A DNA stretch of 64,000 nt from a bacterium 336/3 (GTDB taxonomy: Bacteria > Bacteroidota > Bacteroidia > Cytophagales > Thermonemataceae), in contig LJIE01000001.1 of assembly GCA_001281695.1 (NCBI GenBank), forward strand, positions 1,254,586-1,318,585, given 5' to 3'. Both the position numbers and the translations under genes were made by a program. Within the stretch, counting starts at the first letter, position 1; each line of letters starts with the position of its first letter. Below the pieces are notes generated by a model, which was not told where the DNA came from, did no database searches, and saw only the letters and a list, made by a program, of their open reading frames with translations. Below are positions 49,816 through 55,251 of this stretch, piece by piece.

Positions 49816-51186
49816 TTACAAAACTTTCATAAGCATTCTGACACTGAACACAATTACAAGTGTAGCTACAAGCAATAACGCTATTTTCTGAGGTAATTTG
49901 CCTGCAAGTCTTGCTGCCAAAGGTGCTGCAATAGCTCCACCTACAATCAGCCCCAAGACAATATACCAATGGCTTACCCCTAAAACAGAAAAGAATACAA
50001 TAGAAGCAGAAAGGGTTACAAAAAACTCTGATAAACTTACAGTTCCTACTACAAATTTCGATTTTCTACCTCTTGAAAGCAGGGTAGAGGTAACAATGGG
50101 TCCCCAGCCACCACCACTGAAGGCATCTAAAAATCCACCTAAAAAGCCTAAAAGACCAATATTTTTAACTCGCCTTTTGATAATTTTTTTCTGAAAGGCA
50201 ATGATGATGAGTCTTGCCCCTAAAATCATGCTATACACAGCTAAAATACTATACGTTATATTTTCAAACTGATTGCCTAAATAACTTAGGAACAAAGCTC
50301 CACAAACTGCTCCTATCACTCCAAAACCTGCAAGCCAAATAAGTAATCGCTTGTTTACATTGCCAAATTTATAATGAGAGTAGCCTGTAATGCCACTGGA
50401 GAACATTTCGGCAGTATGGATACTACCACTAATAGCAGTAGATTTAATACCCAAAAGCATCATGCTGGTTGCACAAGTAACACCATAACCAAGTCCAACT
50501 GCTCCATCTACCAATTGAGCCAAAAAACCAACCAAAAGCATTCCATAAAATTCTTTTGGCATTTGTGTAAGCATTCCTTTAAATTCCTCGAAAGAGATAA
50601 TCGTGGAAAATCCATAACCCAAAAATGTTGCTAAAAATAACAAAGAAAGCTGGAATGCTAATTTTCTGTATTTAGCTCCACCATCATTTTTTATTTTGAG
50701 TTTGTGATGAGTAATTTTTTCCTTTAATAGATGAGTTTGAATATCTTCTTTTTCTAATTCTGTTTCCCATACTTTTGAATTTTGAACTGCAGAAAAAGAA
50801 TGATTAATAGTTTTCTCTTTGATGCTTACATCAAAAAAGAAATCTGAGAACTCTTGAAAATGAATAGAATGTACCAAAATTCTTTTTTCTTTAGCTATAG
50901 CTTTGATACTTTCATTGAGGTCTAGATTTTTAACGGCGATGACAACTAAAGATACTTCTTCTAAATCCTGAGGCTCAAAAAGTTTTTCTTCCCATGTGAG
51001 ATGTGGATGTTTTTCAACTAAATCAAACAACTCATCAGATAGAGTAGGTGAAACAATATGAATATTGGTATATTCATTGTATTCAAGGAGATTCATCACT
51101 TTCTGACAGGCACTATTCCCACCCCCAACAATAAGAATTGGATAGTTCTGATTCTGTATGTAAATGGGTAATAGTGAAGTATTCAT
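49816..51186 (-). CDS. CysG-N-like Rossmann domain fused to TauE/SafE transporter
   Basis: A 456-residue fusion. Residues about 15-130 are a precorrin-2 dehydrogenase (CysG/Met8p)-like Rossmann domain: ILIVGGGNSACQKVMNLLE has the GGGxxAxxK signature. The following strand reads VIAVKNLDLNES, where CysG has the catalytic ATDDxxxN, so the catalytic aspartates appear replaced. Residues about 175-456 form a TauE/SafE (TSUP) transporter with about eight membrane helices, including GLGYGVTCATSMMLLGI and LGFLGGFLDAFSGGGWGPIVTSTLL. Being last in the sulfate-assimilation operon, it probably moves a sulfur anion (sulfate, sulfite or similar). Confidence 0.85.
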   Translation of the reverse strand: MNTSLLPIYIQNQNYPILIVGGGNSACQKVMNLLEYNEYTNIHIVSPTLSDELFDLVEKHPHLTWEEKLFEPQDLEEVSLVVIAVKNLDLNESIKAIAKEKRILVHSIHFQEFSDFFFDVSIKEKTINHSFSAVQNSKVWETELEKEDIQTHLLKEKITHHKLKIKNDGGAKYRKLAFQLSLLFLATFLGYGFSTIISFEEFKGMLTQMPKEFYGMLLVGFLAQLVDGAVGLGYGVTCATSMMLLGIKSTAISGSIHTAEMFSSGITGYSHYKFGNVNKRLLIWLAGFGVIGAVCGALFLSYLGNQFENITYSILAVYSMILGARLIIIAFQKKIIKRRVKNIGLLGFLGGFLDAFSGGGWGPIVTSTLLSRGRKSKFVVGTVSLSEFFVTLSASIVFFSVLGVSHWYIVLGLIVGGAIAAPLAARLAGKLPQKIALLLVATLVIVFSVRMLMKVL

Positions 51187-51192
51187 AAGAAA

Positions 51193-51924
51193 TTATTTTT
51201 GAAGATTAATTTTATGAAAGATTGTAAATCTTAAAATATCTCGATTATAAAAGCTATTGCCAGAGGCTCTTTGCTGATACCAGTTCAAATAGCCTGTTTC
51301 TAATCGTAGATTTGAGGTAATATTGTAATTGAAAGCTATATAAATTCTATTTTGGTCAAAAATATTGTATGTGATGTTTCGACCTGCATTAAGCATGATT
51401 TCATCACTTAATTTGATAGATAACCACTTTTTATAAACGGGGATTTCTACTCCTATCTGATAACGAAAACGAAAATTCCCAAACTGATAACCATTCACTA
51501 ATTCATTATTTTCTACTTCATGAAAAAAACGTGCTTCTGCTCTATATCTTTGATTGATGGAAAAATGATTAAACTTAGTTTGATTTGCAAGGGCTATGTG
51601 TGGGCGTAACTCTGGAACAACCAAATTGCTTTCATCTGTTGGGTCTTGTGGACTTTGGAGAAATAAACACATCCCAAGAGCTACATCCCAACCAGAACCC
51701 ACATTTCTATGAATATGATTTCTGAGAACAAGTTGATGTTGAGCAAAAGGGTTGATAAAATGCCTTTCCTGAATTTCGGTAGTTAAAAAATACTTCTGAT
51801 TAAACTGAAGAGTATTATAATAGCCATACCAAATTAGTTGTTGGCGAGTCACTTGTTTCGTATTCTGACTAAAAACAGCAATATTTATCAACCCTAAAAG
51901 CAATATGGATAACCAGTATCTCAT
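51193..51924 (-). CDS. DUF2490 outer-membrane-like protein
   Basis: A 243-residue protein of the DUF2490 family from the ATG at 51924, which overlaps the cysN stop as ATGA; an earlier in-frame start at 51936 is less likely. A signal peptide (YWLSILLLGLINIAVFS) is followed by alternating amphipathic strands (FLTTEIQERHF, QHQLVLRNHIHRNV, YQFGNFRFRYQIGVEIPV, IYIAFNYNITSNLRLETGYLNW) that fit a small outer-membrane beta-barrel. Its place in the sulfate operon, coupled to cysN, suggests a role in sulfur-compound passage; inference. Confidence 0.82.
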   Translation of the reverse strand: MRYWLSILLLGLINIAVFSQNTKQVTRQQLIWYGYYNTLQFNQKYFLTTEIQERHFINPFAQHQLVLRNHIHRNVGSGWDVALGMCLFLQSPQDPTDESNLVVPELRPHIALANQTKFNHFSINQRYRAEARFFHEVENNELVNGYQFGNFRFRYQIGVEIPVYKKWLSIKLSDEIMLNAGRNITYNIFDQNRIYIAFNYNITSNLRLETGYLNWYQQRASGNSFYNRDILRFTIFHKINLQK

Positions 51925-53156
51925 AAAAACATACAAGCCCCTACAGTATTGAATGTGGTTTCATCAATTAAAATAGCACTACCGTTTTGGGGAATTTCTT
52001 TGAATGCATCAAAAAATAAATTCTGATTAGTTTTAATATTCACCTGAGTAATATCATTGAGGCGTACTTCGTCAGTAGAACTAAATTGCCATTCATTGAT
52101 ATTCCATTTTTGCTCAATGGATTGTATTTTTACCCGTACAGTTTTGAAACGATGTTGTAAGAGATAGGTTTTAGCCAGATTGAGAGGTGTGTTATCAAAC
52201 CAGCAAAGCCATGTTTTGAGCTGGTTGGCTTCTTGTGGAGCTTCAGAGACTTTCACAATACTATCACCTCTGCTGATATCAATATTATCTTTAAGATGTA
52301 ATACAATATTCTCGCCTGCCTGAGCTTTTTCTACTTCTTTTTGATGACGTTCTATTTTTATGATTTCACTTTCAATGCCTGCGGGTAGTATTTTTACTTT
52401 GTCACCTACTTGATAAGAGCCACTCAATACCAATCCTGCATAGCCTCTGTAGTCATGGTAGGCATCATCTTTGGGACGTATTACCCATTGTACCTGAAAT
52501 CTGGCTAAAGATTGTGTGTTCGCTGAAATTTCTACTTTTTCTAGATAAGGTAATATTGCTTCTCCTGTGTACCAAGGTGTATTTTCTGATTTTTCAACGA
52601 TATTATCACCCTGTAAAGCACTTACAGGAATGTAAATGATTTCATCATAATTGAGTTCTGTTCTTTTTTCTTCAAAATCCTGCTTGATATCCTCAAACAC
52701 ATTTTCAGAAAAATTCACCAAATCCATTTTATTGATGGCTACTACAGCTTTTCTGATACCCATAAGTGAGCCAATGCTTGCATGGCGTTTGGTTTGTTCT
52801 GTAATGCCTTTACGAGCATCTACAAGCAAAATAATTAAATCGGCATTGGAAGCACCAGTAATCATGTTGCGAGTGTACTGCTCATGTCCTGGAGCATCAG
52901 CAATAATAAATTTACGTTTATCCGTAGAAAAATATTTATAAGCTACATCAATCGTGATGCCTTGTTCTCTTTCAGCTCTCAATCCATCTGTAATTAAAGA
53001 TAAATCTATTTCGCCACTTTGAGAAGCCTTGGTTTGTTTTTGTAAAATACCTAGTTGATCTGTATGAATGCTATTTGAATCGTAAAGTAAACGCCCAATG
53101 AGTGTGCTTTTTCCATCATCTACATTCCCTGCTGTTATAAATTTGAGTGTATTCAT
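51921..53156 (-). CDS. cysN: Sulfate adenylyltransferase subunit 1 (GTPase)
   Basis: A 411-residue EF-Tu-like GTPase. The G1 P-loop GNVDDGKSTLIGRLL, the G3 DAPGHEQYTRNM, and the G4 NKMDL are intact, and beta-barrel domains follow. CysN drives sulfate adenylation by CysD using GTP hydrolysis to form APS. There is no C-terminal APS kinase (CysC) extension, so the pathway would go from APS directly to reduction by CysH. It lies 64 bases after cysD on the minus strand. Confidence 0.96.
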   Translation of the reverse strand: MNTLKFITAGNVDDGKSTLIGRLLYDSNSIHTDQLGILQKQTKASQSGEIDLSLITDGLRAEREQGITIDVAYKYFSTDKRKFIIADAPGHEQYTRNMITGASNADLIILLVDARKGITEQTKRHASIGSLMGIRKAVVAINKMDLVNFSENVFEDIKQDFEEKRTELNYDEIIYIPVSALQGDNIVEKSENTPWYTGEAILPYLEKVEISANTQSLARFQVQWVIRPKDDAYHDYRGYAGLVLSGSYQVGDKVKILPAGIESEIIKIERHQKEVEKAQAGENIVLHLKDNIDISRGDSIVKVSEAPQEANQLKTWLCWFDNTPLNLAKTYLLQHRFKTVRVKIQSIEQKWNINEWQFSSTDEVRLNDITQVNIKTNQNLFFDAFKEIPQNGSAILIDETTFNTVGACMFL

Positions 53157-53219: not shown

Positions 53220-54116
53220 TTAGAAATATCCTTGTTTTTTACGGTCTTCCATAGCAGCTTCAGAAAGTTGATCATCAAGACGTGTTTGACCTCTTTCGCT
53301 GATGCTGGTTTCTATAATTTCTGCTATAATTTCGTCTATTGTCAAAGCCGTAGAGGGTACGGCAGCCGTACAAGTCATGTCACCTACAGTTCTATAACGA
53401 ACTTTTTCTTTCACTACTATATCAGTAGGAAGAGGTTGAATGAAATCTGAAATGGCAACTAATTTATCTTGGTGAACAATACAATCTCTTTCATGAGAGA
53501 AATAAAGGTTGGGAAGTTCTATTTTATGCTTTTTAATATAATTCCAAACATCAAGTTCTGTCCAGTTACTGATAGGAAAAACTCTCACATTATGTCCTTT
53601 ATGAATTTTACCATTCAAAATATTCCAGAGTTCAGGGCGTTGAAGTTTAGGCTCCCACTGTCCAAAATCATCACGAACAGAAAAAATACGTTCTTTGGCT
53701 CTTGCTTTTTCCTCGTCACGTCTTGCTCCAGCAATACAAGCATCAAATTCGTTGGCTTGTATCACGTCTAAAAGAGTATAGGTTTGTAAAGCATTTCTTG
53801 AAGGAAATCTACCTTGAGTTTCTTTTAAGCTGTATTTTTTCATACTGTCCTCTACATAACCCACTATGAGTTTTTCATCAATTTCTGAAACTAATTTATC
53901 TCTGAATGCAAGGGCTTCAGGGAAATTATGACCAGTATCAATATGAACCAATGGAAAAGGGAATTTAGCAGGGCGAAAAGCCTTGAGTGCCAAATGAATG
54001 AGTACAATAGAGTCTTTTCCTCCTGAAAAAAGCAAAGCTGGGCGTTCAAATTGAGCAGCAGTTTCCCTCAAAATATAAATAGCTTCGTCTTCTAATTGTT
54101 CTAAATAATTATTCAT
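53220..54116 (-). CDS. cysD: Sulfate adenylyltransferase subunit 2
   Basis: A 298-residue N-type ATP pyrophosphatase, forming APS from ATP and sulfate with CysN. The PP-loop SGGKDSIVLIHLA, the IDTGHNFPEALAFRD strand, AGARRDEEKARAKERI and the C-terminal MTCTAAVPSTA are all family hallmarks. Length is normal. It lies between cysH (53 bases upstream) and cysN on the minus strand. Confidence 0.97.
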   Translation of the reverse strand: MNNYLEQLEDEAIYILRETAAQFERPALLFSGGKDSIVLIHLALKAFRPAKFPFPLVHIDTGHNFPEALAFRDKLVSEIDEKLIVGYVEDSMKKYSLKETQGRFPSRNALQTYTLLDVIQANEFDACIAGARRDEEKARAKERIFSVRDDFGQWEPKLQRPELWNILNGKIHKGHNVRVFPISNWTELDVWNYIKKHKIELPNLYFSHERDCIVHQDKLVAISDFIQPLPTDIVVKEKVRYRTVGDMTCTAAVPSTALTIDEIIAEIIETSISERGQTRLDDQLSEAAMEDRKKQGYF

Positions 54117-54169: not shown

Positions 54170-54865
54170 CTATCTATGTAATCCACATTCTTTTTTAGAG
54201 TTATCTTCCCACCACCAACGACCAGCTCGTAAATCTTCGCCCTCTTGAATAGCCCTTGTACACGGCTGACAACCAATGCTTACAAAGCCTTTGTCTTGCA
54301 ATACATTGTATGGAATATTGTACTTTTTAACATAAGATTCTACTTCTTGTGTACTCCAATGCAACAAAGGGTTGTATTTATGCAATTGATTTGCTTCATC
54401 CCATTCAATAAAATCAGTTTGGCTTCTATTGGTAGAATGCTCTGCCCTAATACCTGTAATCCAGAGTTTTGCCCCCTGTAATGCTCTTTTCAGAGGTTCT
54501 ACTTTTCGGATAAAACAACATTCTTTACGCAAATCTACTGATTCATAAAATGCATTGATGCCTTTGGTTTGAACATATTGCTCAATACTTTGATTATTTG
54601 GATAATAGGGCTTTATGTTATAATTGTACTTTTTGACAGTTCTATCCCAAACTTGATACGTTTCTGCAAAAAAACGTCCTGTATCCAAAGTGAAAATATC
54701 AATGTTTTTGATATTCTGACTGAGAATAGCATGTGTAATGATTTGGTCTTCAACACTAAAACTGGTAGAAAAAACTATTCTTTCTGAAATATTTTTAGAA
54801 AGGGATAGTAAACTTTCTTCTAAGCCTTTTTGGGCAATGAGATTATTTAGAAAATCTTGATCCAT
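54170..54865 (-). CDS. cysH: Adenylyl-sulfate (APS/PAPS) reductase
   Basis: A 231-residue reductase producing sulfite. N-terminal VFSTSFSVEDQIITHA is the modified PP-loop, and FTLDTGRFFAETYQVWD follows. Cysteines C116-C117 and C199/C202 form the two pairs that bind a [4Fe-4S] cluster in APS-type reductases. The C-terminal ECGLHR (C227) holds the catalytic thiol. The four-cysteine pattern plus absence of CysC points to APS as substrate. It is the first enzyme gene behind the riboswitch and leader peptide, and its start lies 102 bases after the leader stop. Confidence 0.95.
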   Translation of the reverse strand: MDQDFLNNLIAQKGLEESLLSLSKNISERIVFSTSFSVEDQIITHAILSQNIKNIDIFTLDTGRFFAETYQVWDRTVKKYNYNIKPYYPNNQSIEQYVQTKGINAFYESVDLRKECCFIRKVEPLKRALQGAKLWITGIRAEHSTNRSQTDFIEWDEANQLHKYNPLLHWSTQEVESYVKKYNIPYNVLQDKGFVSIGCQPCTRAIQEGEDLRAGRWWWEDNSKKECGLHR

Positions 54866-54886: not shown

Positions 54887-55008
54887 CCTGAATGAATTAT
54901 GAAATCCTCAGGAATATAGCTGTTGATAAAATAAAGAAATAATTCGATATGAGGATGTTACGTTGTATTAACAACAGCAACACGATTCAAAAGTAGAAAC
55001 TTTTGAAT
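54887..55008 (-). promoter_or_regulatory. Attenuator-like alternative pairings in the cys leader
   Basis: On the minus strand, a perfect 10-bp hairpin (arms 54999-55008 and 54985-54994, loop AGAA on the plus strand) lies inside the leader reading frame with its 3' arm ending one codon before the four cysteine codons. Past the leader stop, ATCCTCA (54950-54956) can pair with TGAGGAT (54904-54910), whereas CCTGA (54908-54912) can pair instead with TCAGG (54887-54891), which lies about 21 bases before the cysH start. The two pairings exclude each other. Stems are short (7 and 5 bp), so the switching role is inference. Confidence 0.45.
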
Positions 55009-55057
55009 TGAAAGAAAAAAATGGTAGAAAAGAAAAAATGGTAGAATAAAGATTCAT
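54968..55057 (-). CDS. Polycysteine leader peptide of the sulfate operon
   Basis: An unannotated 29-codon frame between the SAM riboswitch and cysH. It begins MNLYSTIFSFLP and ends ESCCCC followed by TAA, so four consecutive Cys codons (TGT TGC TGT TGT) sit right before the stop. The ATG lies 12 bases after the riboswitch's P1 helix, and a perfect 10-bp hairpin abuts the Cys codons. Polycysteine leader frames are known in mycobacteria to sense cysteine through ribosome-mediated attenuation. Here, scarce charged tRNA-Cys would slow the ribosome at the Cys run and change folding before cysH. Real translation is not proven, but the position and the run make chance unlikely. Confidence 0.75.
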   Translation of the reverse strand: MNLYSTIFSFLPFFSFNSKVSTFESCCCC

Positions 55058-55220: not shown

Positions 55221-55251
55221 CAAAGGTAAAAACTGTATTCTGATTTGCAAA
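55221..55251 (-). promoter_or_regulatory. Bacteroidota-consensus promoter of the cys operon
   Basis: On the minus strand, TTTG (55251-55248), a 19-base spacer and TACCTTTG (55228-55221) match the Bacteroidota consensus TTTG-N19-TAnnTTTG exactly. Transcription would start near 55214, about 45 bases before the riboswitch P1 helix. Confidence 0.75.

Follow-up and report, generated by a model that had tools for sequence, protein, structure and literature searches.

A polycysteine reading frame directly behind a SAM-I riboswitch upstream of cysHDN: a putative two-input leader in Cytophagales and relatives

Both SAM riboswitches and codon-run attenuators are familiar devices when taken separately. 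In mycobacteria, polycysteine leaderless short ORFs are reported to act by cysteine-responsive attenuation (Canestrari et al. 2020, Mol Microbiol 114:93). The locus studied here lies within a stretch of 64,000 nucleotides (hereafter the window) from the genome of the Cytophagales bacterium 336/3 (GCA_001281695.1, contig LJIE01000001.1). It resembles the mycobacterial ones, for which a response to cysteine is reported, in carrying a short ORF with consecutive Cys codons before cysteine genes, but it belongs to another phylum and, whereas those ORFs are leaderless by the title of that work, its ORF stands behind a SAM-I aptamer. The start of this ORF follows a complete 104-nt aptamer by 11 nt, which argues against a leaderless ORF at the window; the transcript start is unmapped.

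Several other systems invite comparison; the sources cited here by PMC number were available in part only, and what is said of them is limited to those parts. The mycobacterial polycysteine system has been termed translation attenuation (PMC13236596). Another system is uORFC-8-2, found before cysS in Rhodobacterales, with tandem Cys codons in a stem and a proposed ribosome-mediated attenuation; it differs in having two Cys codons, a terminator-like 3’ U run and an association with cysS only, and the available part of its description does not mention a riboswitch (PMC8632094). The mgtCBR leader of Salmonella, described as tandem attenuators, likewise reads two signals in one RNA, one of them a charged tRNA sensed through a codon-rich ORF, but it does so with two ORFs, its ATP and proline signals are reported to be independent and additive, and no metabolite aptamer directly before the ORF is described in the accessible text (PMC3641672). 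In Sinorhizobium meliloti, the methionine gene metA likewise has a SAM riboswitch beside its first AUG and another start codon farther on; it differs from the window leader in the riboswitch class (SAM-II) and in having in-frame metA starts, and an amino-acid codon run goes unmentioned in what is available of the source (PMC9373788). Tandem riboswitch logic gates also combine two sensors per leader; there, as far as the accessible parts go, both inputs are small-molecule aptamers, whereas in the window leader one input would be the ribosome (PMC5912903, PMC9481103). Among Bacteroidota, clues for leader-peptide attenuation before amino-acid operons have been presented for Flavobacterium psychrophilum (PMC9723704), and short ORFs reminiscent of leader peptides were noted in 5’ UTRs of Bacteroides thetaiotaomicron (PMC7366714); the parts of these two papers at hand name neither a Cys run nor a SAM riboswitch. 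No description of a SAM riboswitch fused to a cysteine leader was found in the literature searched, which left most subscription papers outside its coverage, so that within this limit nothing contradicts an earlier statement, made from the sequence alone, that no equivalent stacked with a SAM-I riboswitch was known to have been described in Bacteroidota. The parts of the leader are thus of known kinds; their fusion, with the aptamer directly before the sensing ORF, is new as far as that search reaches.

The leader upstream of cysH

As the sequence-only reading had proposed, a 29-codon frame ending in ESCCCC and TAA lies on the minus strand between a SAM riboswitch and cysH. This polycysteine leader ORF (54968-55057, minus strand; MNLYSTIFSFLPFFSFNSKVSTFESCCCC then TAA, read from the sequence and the ORF list) has its ATG at 55057 and its TAA at 54970-54968, and its final four Cys codons, TGT TGC TGT TGT (54971-54982), abut the stop codon. 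The riboswitch named in that reading is indeed present as a SAM-I aptamer (RF00162; 55068-55171, minus strand), which scores 75.1 bits, the gathering threshold being 44.4, and covers model positions 1-108, with fold and core above the gathering score. RF00162 was the sole match in the window, no other Rfam family reaching its gathering threshold, and a T-box fold was not found. Between the end of the aptamer and the leader ATG there are 10 nt (ATG at +11), and between the leader stop and the cysH start (54865) 102 nt. The P1 core strands of the aptamer, UUUAUA (55169-55164) and UAUAAA (55075-55070), both read from the minus-strand sequence, consist entirely of A and U. About 50 nt upstream of the aptamer, a promoter-like site, TTTG-N19-TAccTTTG (55221-55251, minus strand), fits the Bacteroidota promoter consensus, but this assignment is weak because the window holds about as many matches as chance gives (5 observed, 3.57 expected).

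Downstream lie cysH (PAPS/APS reductase; 54170-54865, PF01507, 2.8e-41, named from its sequence), cysD (sulfate adenylyltransferase subunit; 53220-54116, PF01507, 4.3e-44) and cysN (sulfate adenylyltransferase GTPase subunit; 51921-53156, PF00009 and PF22594), the last two named from sequence and gene order and all three on the minus strand. This locus shows two traits of amino-acid attenuators. Its short ORF carries consecutive codons for the amino acid in which the pathway ends, and genes of that same pathway follow downstream. Three congeners of this bacterium gave no match to cysH. A gene near the cys operon (49816-51186, minus strand) combines an NAD-binding domain (PF13241) and a TauE/SafE permease domain (PF01925) in one protein.

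On the RNA, the Cys codons pair with the post-stop sequence ACAACGUAACAU in a hairpin of 12 pairs with one bulge and the stop codon in its loop (54955-54983, minus strand), which is present in both the minimum free energy and centroid folds; the Cys run with the following 30 nt has a folding z of -2.1. A possible competing helix, AUCCUCA (54956-54950) with UGAGGAU (54910-54904), was recognized by eye on the same strand (54904-54956); it has a long, U-rich loop and overlaps the Cys hairpin by 2 nt, is absent from the minimum free energy fold and lacks comparative support. Within the leader, and ending 2 nt short of the Cys run, sequence and fold give a 9-bp hairpin, AUUCAAAAG-UUUCUA-CUUUUGAAU (54985-55008, minus strand), possibly an RNA polymerase pause site giving the ribosome time to catch up.

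Chance alone rarely produces such a frame: in 5000 dinucleotide shuffles of the window leader, an early frame with CC close to its terminus appeared once and one with CCCC never. The same genome holds six SAM-I riboswitches, three of which are followed by a polycysteine ORF, namely the one at cysH, one at metY (MEKPNKTSQKNTSNNFLLICLACCCCC) and one at an NhaC-like transporter gene (MQKNLFFSATFSYITKYNLETTIFMALLCCCC); two of those without a Cys ORF (L001 and L004) are followed instead by a site resembling an intrinsic terminator. The metY product exceeds the cut-off of the NCBIfam model “O-acetylhomoserine aminocarboxypropyltransferase/cysteine synthase”, which makes a cysteine input at metY plausible. 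As the NhaC-like transporter gene sits behind a SAM-I aptamer and a polycysteine leader (L003, G000:C1:1050549-1050649), its product may carry a sulfur compound.

Occurrence in Cytophagales and other Bacteroidota

We searched RF00162 in 148 Cytophagales genomes, 112 of which have matches, and read the best-scoring 115 of at least 150 SAM-I loci, from 72 genomes. These loci, which are no random draw, comprise 30 ready loci, five more from the window’s own genome and 80 fetched ones, the 35 lowest listed being left out. Under a strict criterion (an ORF that starts with ATG or GTG between +5 and +16, counted from the aptamer end, and closes with CCC), 45 of these best-scoring 115 loci, in 33 genomes, carry a leader (39 with ATG, 6 with GTG), against a mean of 0.06 and a maximum of 1 in shuffles; under a loose one (an ATG frame that opens close to where the aptamer ends and has CC among its final ten residues), 44 of 115 do, against a mean of 0.47 and a maximum of 2. 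The two criteria differ in membership, hence the two counts; the shuffle controls ignore the relatedness of the loci, and the groups called leaderless still contain a few leaders (such as L087 and other GTG loci). Within the same best-scoring set, leaders open most often at +10 (18 loci) and +11 (10 loci) and measure 23 to 60 codons, and up to nine consecutive Cys close the C terminus of one of them (L088).

Conservation of the reading frame is evident from comparison of the loci. Wherever a locus has an ATG at +4 to +17, the TGY runs within 230 nt are in frame with it (42 of 42, 41 of them before the stop), and seven further runs at loci without such an ATG, all of family f13, each match the frame of a GTG at +10 or +11. 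This bears on the idea that the TGY repeats serve RNA pairing, or arose by chance, and are not codons. In Mucilaginibacter the run can indeed pair with an arm beyond the stop, and there is little variation at its third positions, as would suit a pairing element; nonetheless, the shared frame, the mixed use of TGT and TGC (170 to 78) and the 45 loci against 0.06 in shuffles leave this explanation with hardly any credence.

The association with particular genes likewise emerges from comparison. Among the best-scoring 115 of at least 150 loci, leaders occur at 24 of 35 metY, 4 of 6 cysH, 3 of 4 amino-acid permease, 2 of 2 nitrite/sulfite-reductase-like, 2 of 12 metX and none of 34 metH loci, and in the 15 genomes that have SAM-I loci at both metY and metH, the leader is at metY only in 10 and at metH only in none. 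Leaders also precede genes for a TonB-dependent receptor (L113), a peroxiredoxin-like protein (L117) and a RimK-like ATP-grasp protein (L118); tblastn placed two further loci, L057 and L096, in the classes of these three. The classes metY, metH, metX, NhaC-like, permease and cysH were assigned by tblastn to set members; their names rest on motifs that we recognized, with only representatives checked against models. Representatives of metY (one, TIGR01326), metX (one, PRK00175) and cysH (two, PRK02090) exceeded the cut-offs; the metH representative, a fragment, fell below its cut-off, and the NhaC-like and permease proteins stayed under NCBIfam cut-offs, the NhaC-like one being over a Pfam cut-off.

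Two subtypes of the 5’ P1 strand, CTTATC and TTTATA, can be distinguished in these best-scoring 115 of at least 150 loci. None of the 42 CTTATC aptamers is followed by a leader, and the 70 TTTATA aptamers hold 49 of the 50 leaders found by either criterion. A start codon at +8 to +12 is present at 45 of 49 TTTATA loci with a leader, partly by selection, and, where no leader was counted, at 13 of 21 TTTATA loci versus 2 of 42 CTTATC loci; at L103 this early start, at +10, is that of metX itself. Terminator-like sites within 120 nt follow 11 of 42 CTTATC aptamers, versus 2 of 21 TTTATA aptamers without and 4 of 49 with a leader. Since the start at +8 to +12 is tied to one P1 subtype, the riboswitch could gate translation of the ORF, and we infer a translational platform in which the A/U P1, with its 3’ strand in the ribosome entry region, would open at low SAM. 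The TTTATA loci without Cys runs include eight metY and eight metX, and all eight of the metY loci (L061, L024, L021, L039, L078, L027, L044 and L074) keep an ATG at +8 to +12 and a short ORF. The Cys run therefore gives the impression of an input grafted onto a SAM-gated ORF; that ORF may predate the cysteine sensor or respond to some other signal. These eight loci also favor an explanation in which the ORF is simply the translational target of the riboswitch, with the operon coupled to it by polarity (through Rho or RNase protection) and the Cys run being no sensor at all. We consider this improbable, because Cys runs are kept in every parsed Mucilaginibacter leader, stand at sulfur genes and at none of the 34 metH loci, and arise apart from the aptamer too.

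The last point comes from a second set of 80 named metY loci, of which the 57 belonging to Bacteroidota by record title were re-scanned and 21 flagged; L216 looks like chance, and three loci missed by the re-scan (L204, L205 and L253) were found under other criteria. Among these 80 loci, a Cys-rich ORF behind a SAM core occurs in Mucilaginibacter, Pedobacter rhizosphaerae, a Sphingobacterium MAG, Hymenobacter, a Bernardetia MAG, Cyclobacteriaceae, Saprospiraceae and Lewinella MAGs and one Flavobacteriaceae genome; Cyclobacterium plantarum and some further species of Pedobacter and Sphingobacterium are among those in which no such ORF was seen at metY. In a phylum-wide sample of Bacteroidota (70 of 150 matches listed, with 22 contributed by a single family that lies outside the class), the loose CC criterion was met by 1 of 70 and the strict CCC criterion by 0 of 70 among the matches listed; judged by sequence comparison, the putative device is not general in Bacteroidota.

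Three of the metY loci, two of them from records labelled Chitinophagaceae, have a SAM aptamer with its own terminator (by eye) and a separate Cys ORF nearer metY (L134, L220 at 897-1500 and L233 at 902-1500). At L253 the Cys ORF is placed before the aptamer, and in a Saprospiraceae MAG (L245, about 1250-1440) a Cys-rich ORF and then a strong terminator, again by eye, lie upstream of metY, with no SAM aptamer at the gathering threshold. metY may have acquired its cysteine input on more than one occasion. Such arrangements are what one would expect of two independent sensors in series, each acting alone on the operon, their fixed spacing in the fused type being incidental. This possibility has to be kept in mind, yet we think it unlikely for the fused type, where the early start follows one P1 subtype, a tie that independence does not predict, and where terminators within 120 nt are rarer than behind CTTATC aptamers (4 of 49 versus 11 of 42), which it does not predict either.

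Mucilaginibacter leaders and the RNA behind their stop codons

metY was detected at E 1e-100 in 74 of 80 Mucilaginibacter genomes; 70 of the 74 loci were fetched and 69 parsed, L325 being omitted because of its start motif. All 69 parsed leaders have at least two Cys within their final 14 residues. In 101 close, non-independent pairs of these leaders, the body changes at 0.253, 0.18 and 0.18 per first, second and third codon position, without any third-position bias, and the final four codons at 0.012, 0 and 0.037, so the Cys run is kept against the drift of the rest, a comparison that the sequence-only reading had suggested making. According to that reading, relatives with neither a conserved short frame nor a run of Cys at this place would have refuted it; the comparison did not refute it, given the 45 of the best-scoring 115 Cytophagales loci, the named genomes and the 69 of 69 Mucilaginibacter leaders. 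The support for a polycysteine leader is nevertheless comparative only, without data on translation or on a response to cysteine.

Because the body drifts without third-position bias whereas the Cys tail is kept, the body does not seem to be selected as protein. This weakens the case for a functional cysteine-rich microprotein, for instance a metal-binding peptide, for which the nine consecutive C-terminal Cys of L088 might plead. The length range of 23 to 60 codons, the lack of any NCBIfam match for seven such leaders, that of the window included, and the fixed position behind the aptamer also stand against it, and we regard it as very improbable. Mucilaginibacter tails (L304-L373) often read C-x-C-M-C-C-C-C, and the recurrent Met codon, together with the low third-position change in these tails, hints at a constraint at the RNA level.

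RNAalifold gave a consensus of few pairs for the 69 Mucilaginibacter rows, and named helices, picked after viewing the alignment, were counted instead. The best supported is a post-stop hairpin between region 2 (AACACGU), which starts 4-12 nt past the leader stop in 67 of 69 Mucilaginibacter loci, and region 3 (ACGUGUU). In this hairpin 2:3, 88.5% of cells are paired, both sides have changed at 5 of 6 pairs (reached by 3 of 500 shuffles) and the covariation score of 0.278 was reached by none of 500 shuffles; slid versions are all lower on these measures. The Cys-tail codons AUG UGU resemble region 3, and their alternative pairing with region 2 is possible in 88.5% of cells as well. This alternative helix between the Cys codons and region 2 shows no covariation in Mucilaginibacter and is not above shuffles, which is expected if the codons fix that strand or, alternatively, if the pairing is fortuitous. 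As a conserved helix it was accordingly set aside for lack of covariation, and it is retained merely as a possibility. Mean energies of the two alternative segments are similar (-8.0 and -8.8 kcal/mol). Further downstream, a hairpin-like motif, GGAUA-UAUCC, recurs in Mucilaginibacter.

More widely, the 100-nt regions behind the leader stops fold better than shuffles (mean z -2.4 in Mucilaginibacter and -1.6 in Cytophagales). For mutually exclusive pairing, Mucilaginibacter scores above every one of 40 shuffles; in Cytophagales the support is weak, with 3 of 60 shuffles reaching the observed value. The score is 0 at L003, L005 and the window leader (L006), and L003 shows no folding between the Cys run and the sequence behind it (z +0.94). 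With regard to terminators, a tool scan found no intrinsic one between the window leader and cysH, and script scans found 2 after 44 Cytophagales leaders (6.2 in shuffles) and 6 after 69 Mucilaginibacter leaders (4.8 in shuffles). An intrinsic terminator behind the fused-type leader was consequently dropped as a candidate, there being none at the window and no enrichment elsewhere. A Rho signature was dropped too, as composition after leader stops (C 0.223, G 0.170) shows no excess of C over G compared with that behind leaderless aptamers (C 0.224, G 0.177).

A putative gate for SAM and cysteine

We consider it probable, though well short of established, that the locus is a two-input RNA leader in which a SAM-I riboswitch gates a ribosome-mediated cysteine-codon attenuator. 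The recurrence of the pair in many relatives suggests, from comparison of sequences alone, that one RNA leader may sense SAM plus cysteine supply; the gating, the off-switch and the direction of the response are inferred. In the first inferred step, binding of SAM would close the all-A/U P1 and hide the A/U-rich ribosome entry region upstream of the start, so that the leader would remain untranslated and the operon low. At low SAM, P1 would open and ribosomes would translate the leader. With plentiful charged tRNA-Cys, the ribosome would run off at the stop and leave the Cys codons free to pair with the post-stop sequence; with scarce charged tRNA-Cys, it would stall on the Cys codons, an inference in itself, and block that pairing. 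After stalling, the post-stop sequence would fold into the alternative hairpin and the operon would be expressed. The net logic would be that cysHDN is on when both SAM and cysteine are low.

The weak point of this mechanism is the off-switch, with neither a terminator nor a Rho-like composition in evidence. In the off state, transcription might end, either through Rho or at a weak U-rich site that follows the Cys-run hairpin; translation might be controlled instead. Without an intrinsic terminator at the window leader, a trp-type ending is unproven. The element is proposed to work like an attenuator and is not classed as a trp-type terminator attenuator, because no intrinsic terminator was found to serve as its off structure.

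Whether the two-input leader amounts to a hierarchical SAM-and-cysteine gate is, in our judgment, evenly poised. In such a gate the expression platform of the riboswitch would itself be the second sensor, SAM controlling translation of the ORF and the translating ribosome reading charged tRNA-Cys, and it would constitute a recurrent sulfur-assimilation device in Cytophagales, Sphingobacteriales and relatives, where the Cys run would be gained or lost and the SAM-gated ORF would stay. If true, a single RNA would weigh both end products of sulfur assimilation without any protein regulator, and the phylum, whose rules for starting translation are unusual, would offer a well-defined system for testing two inputs; there would also be many short leader ORFs that family-based annotation leaves unnamed.
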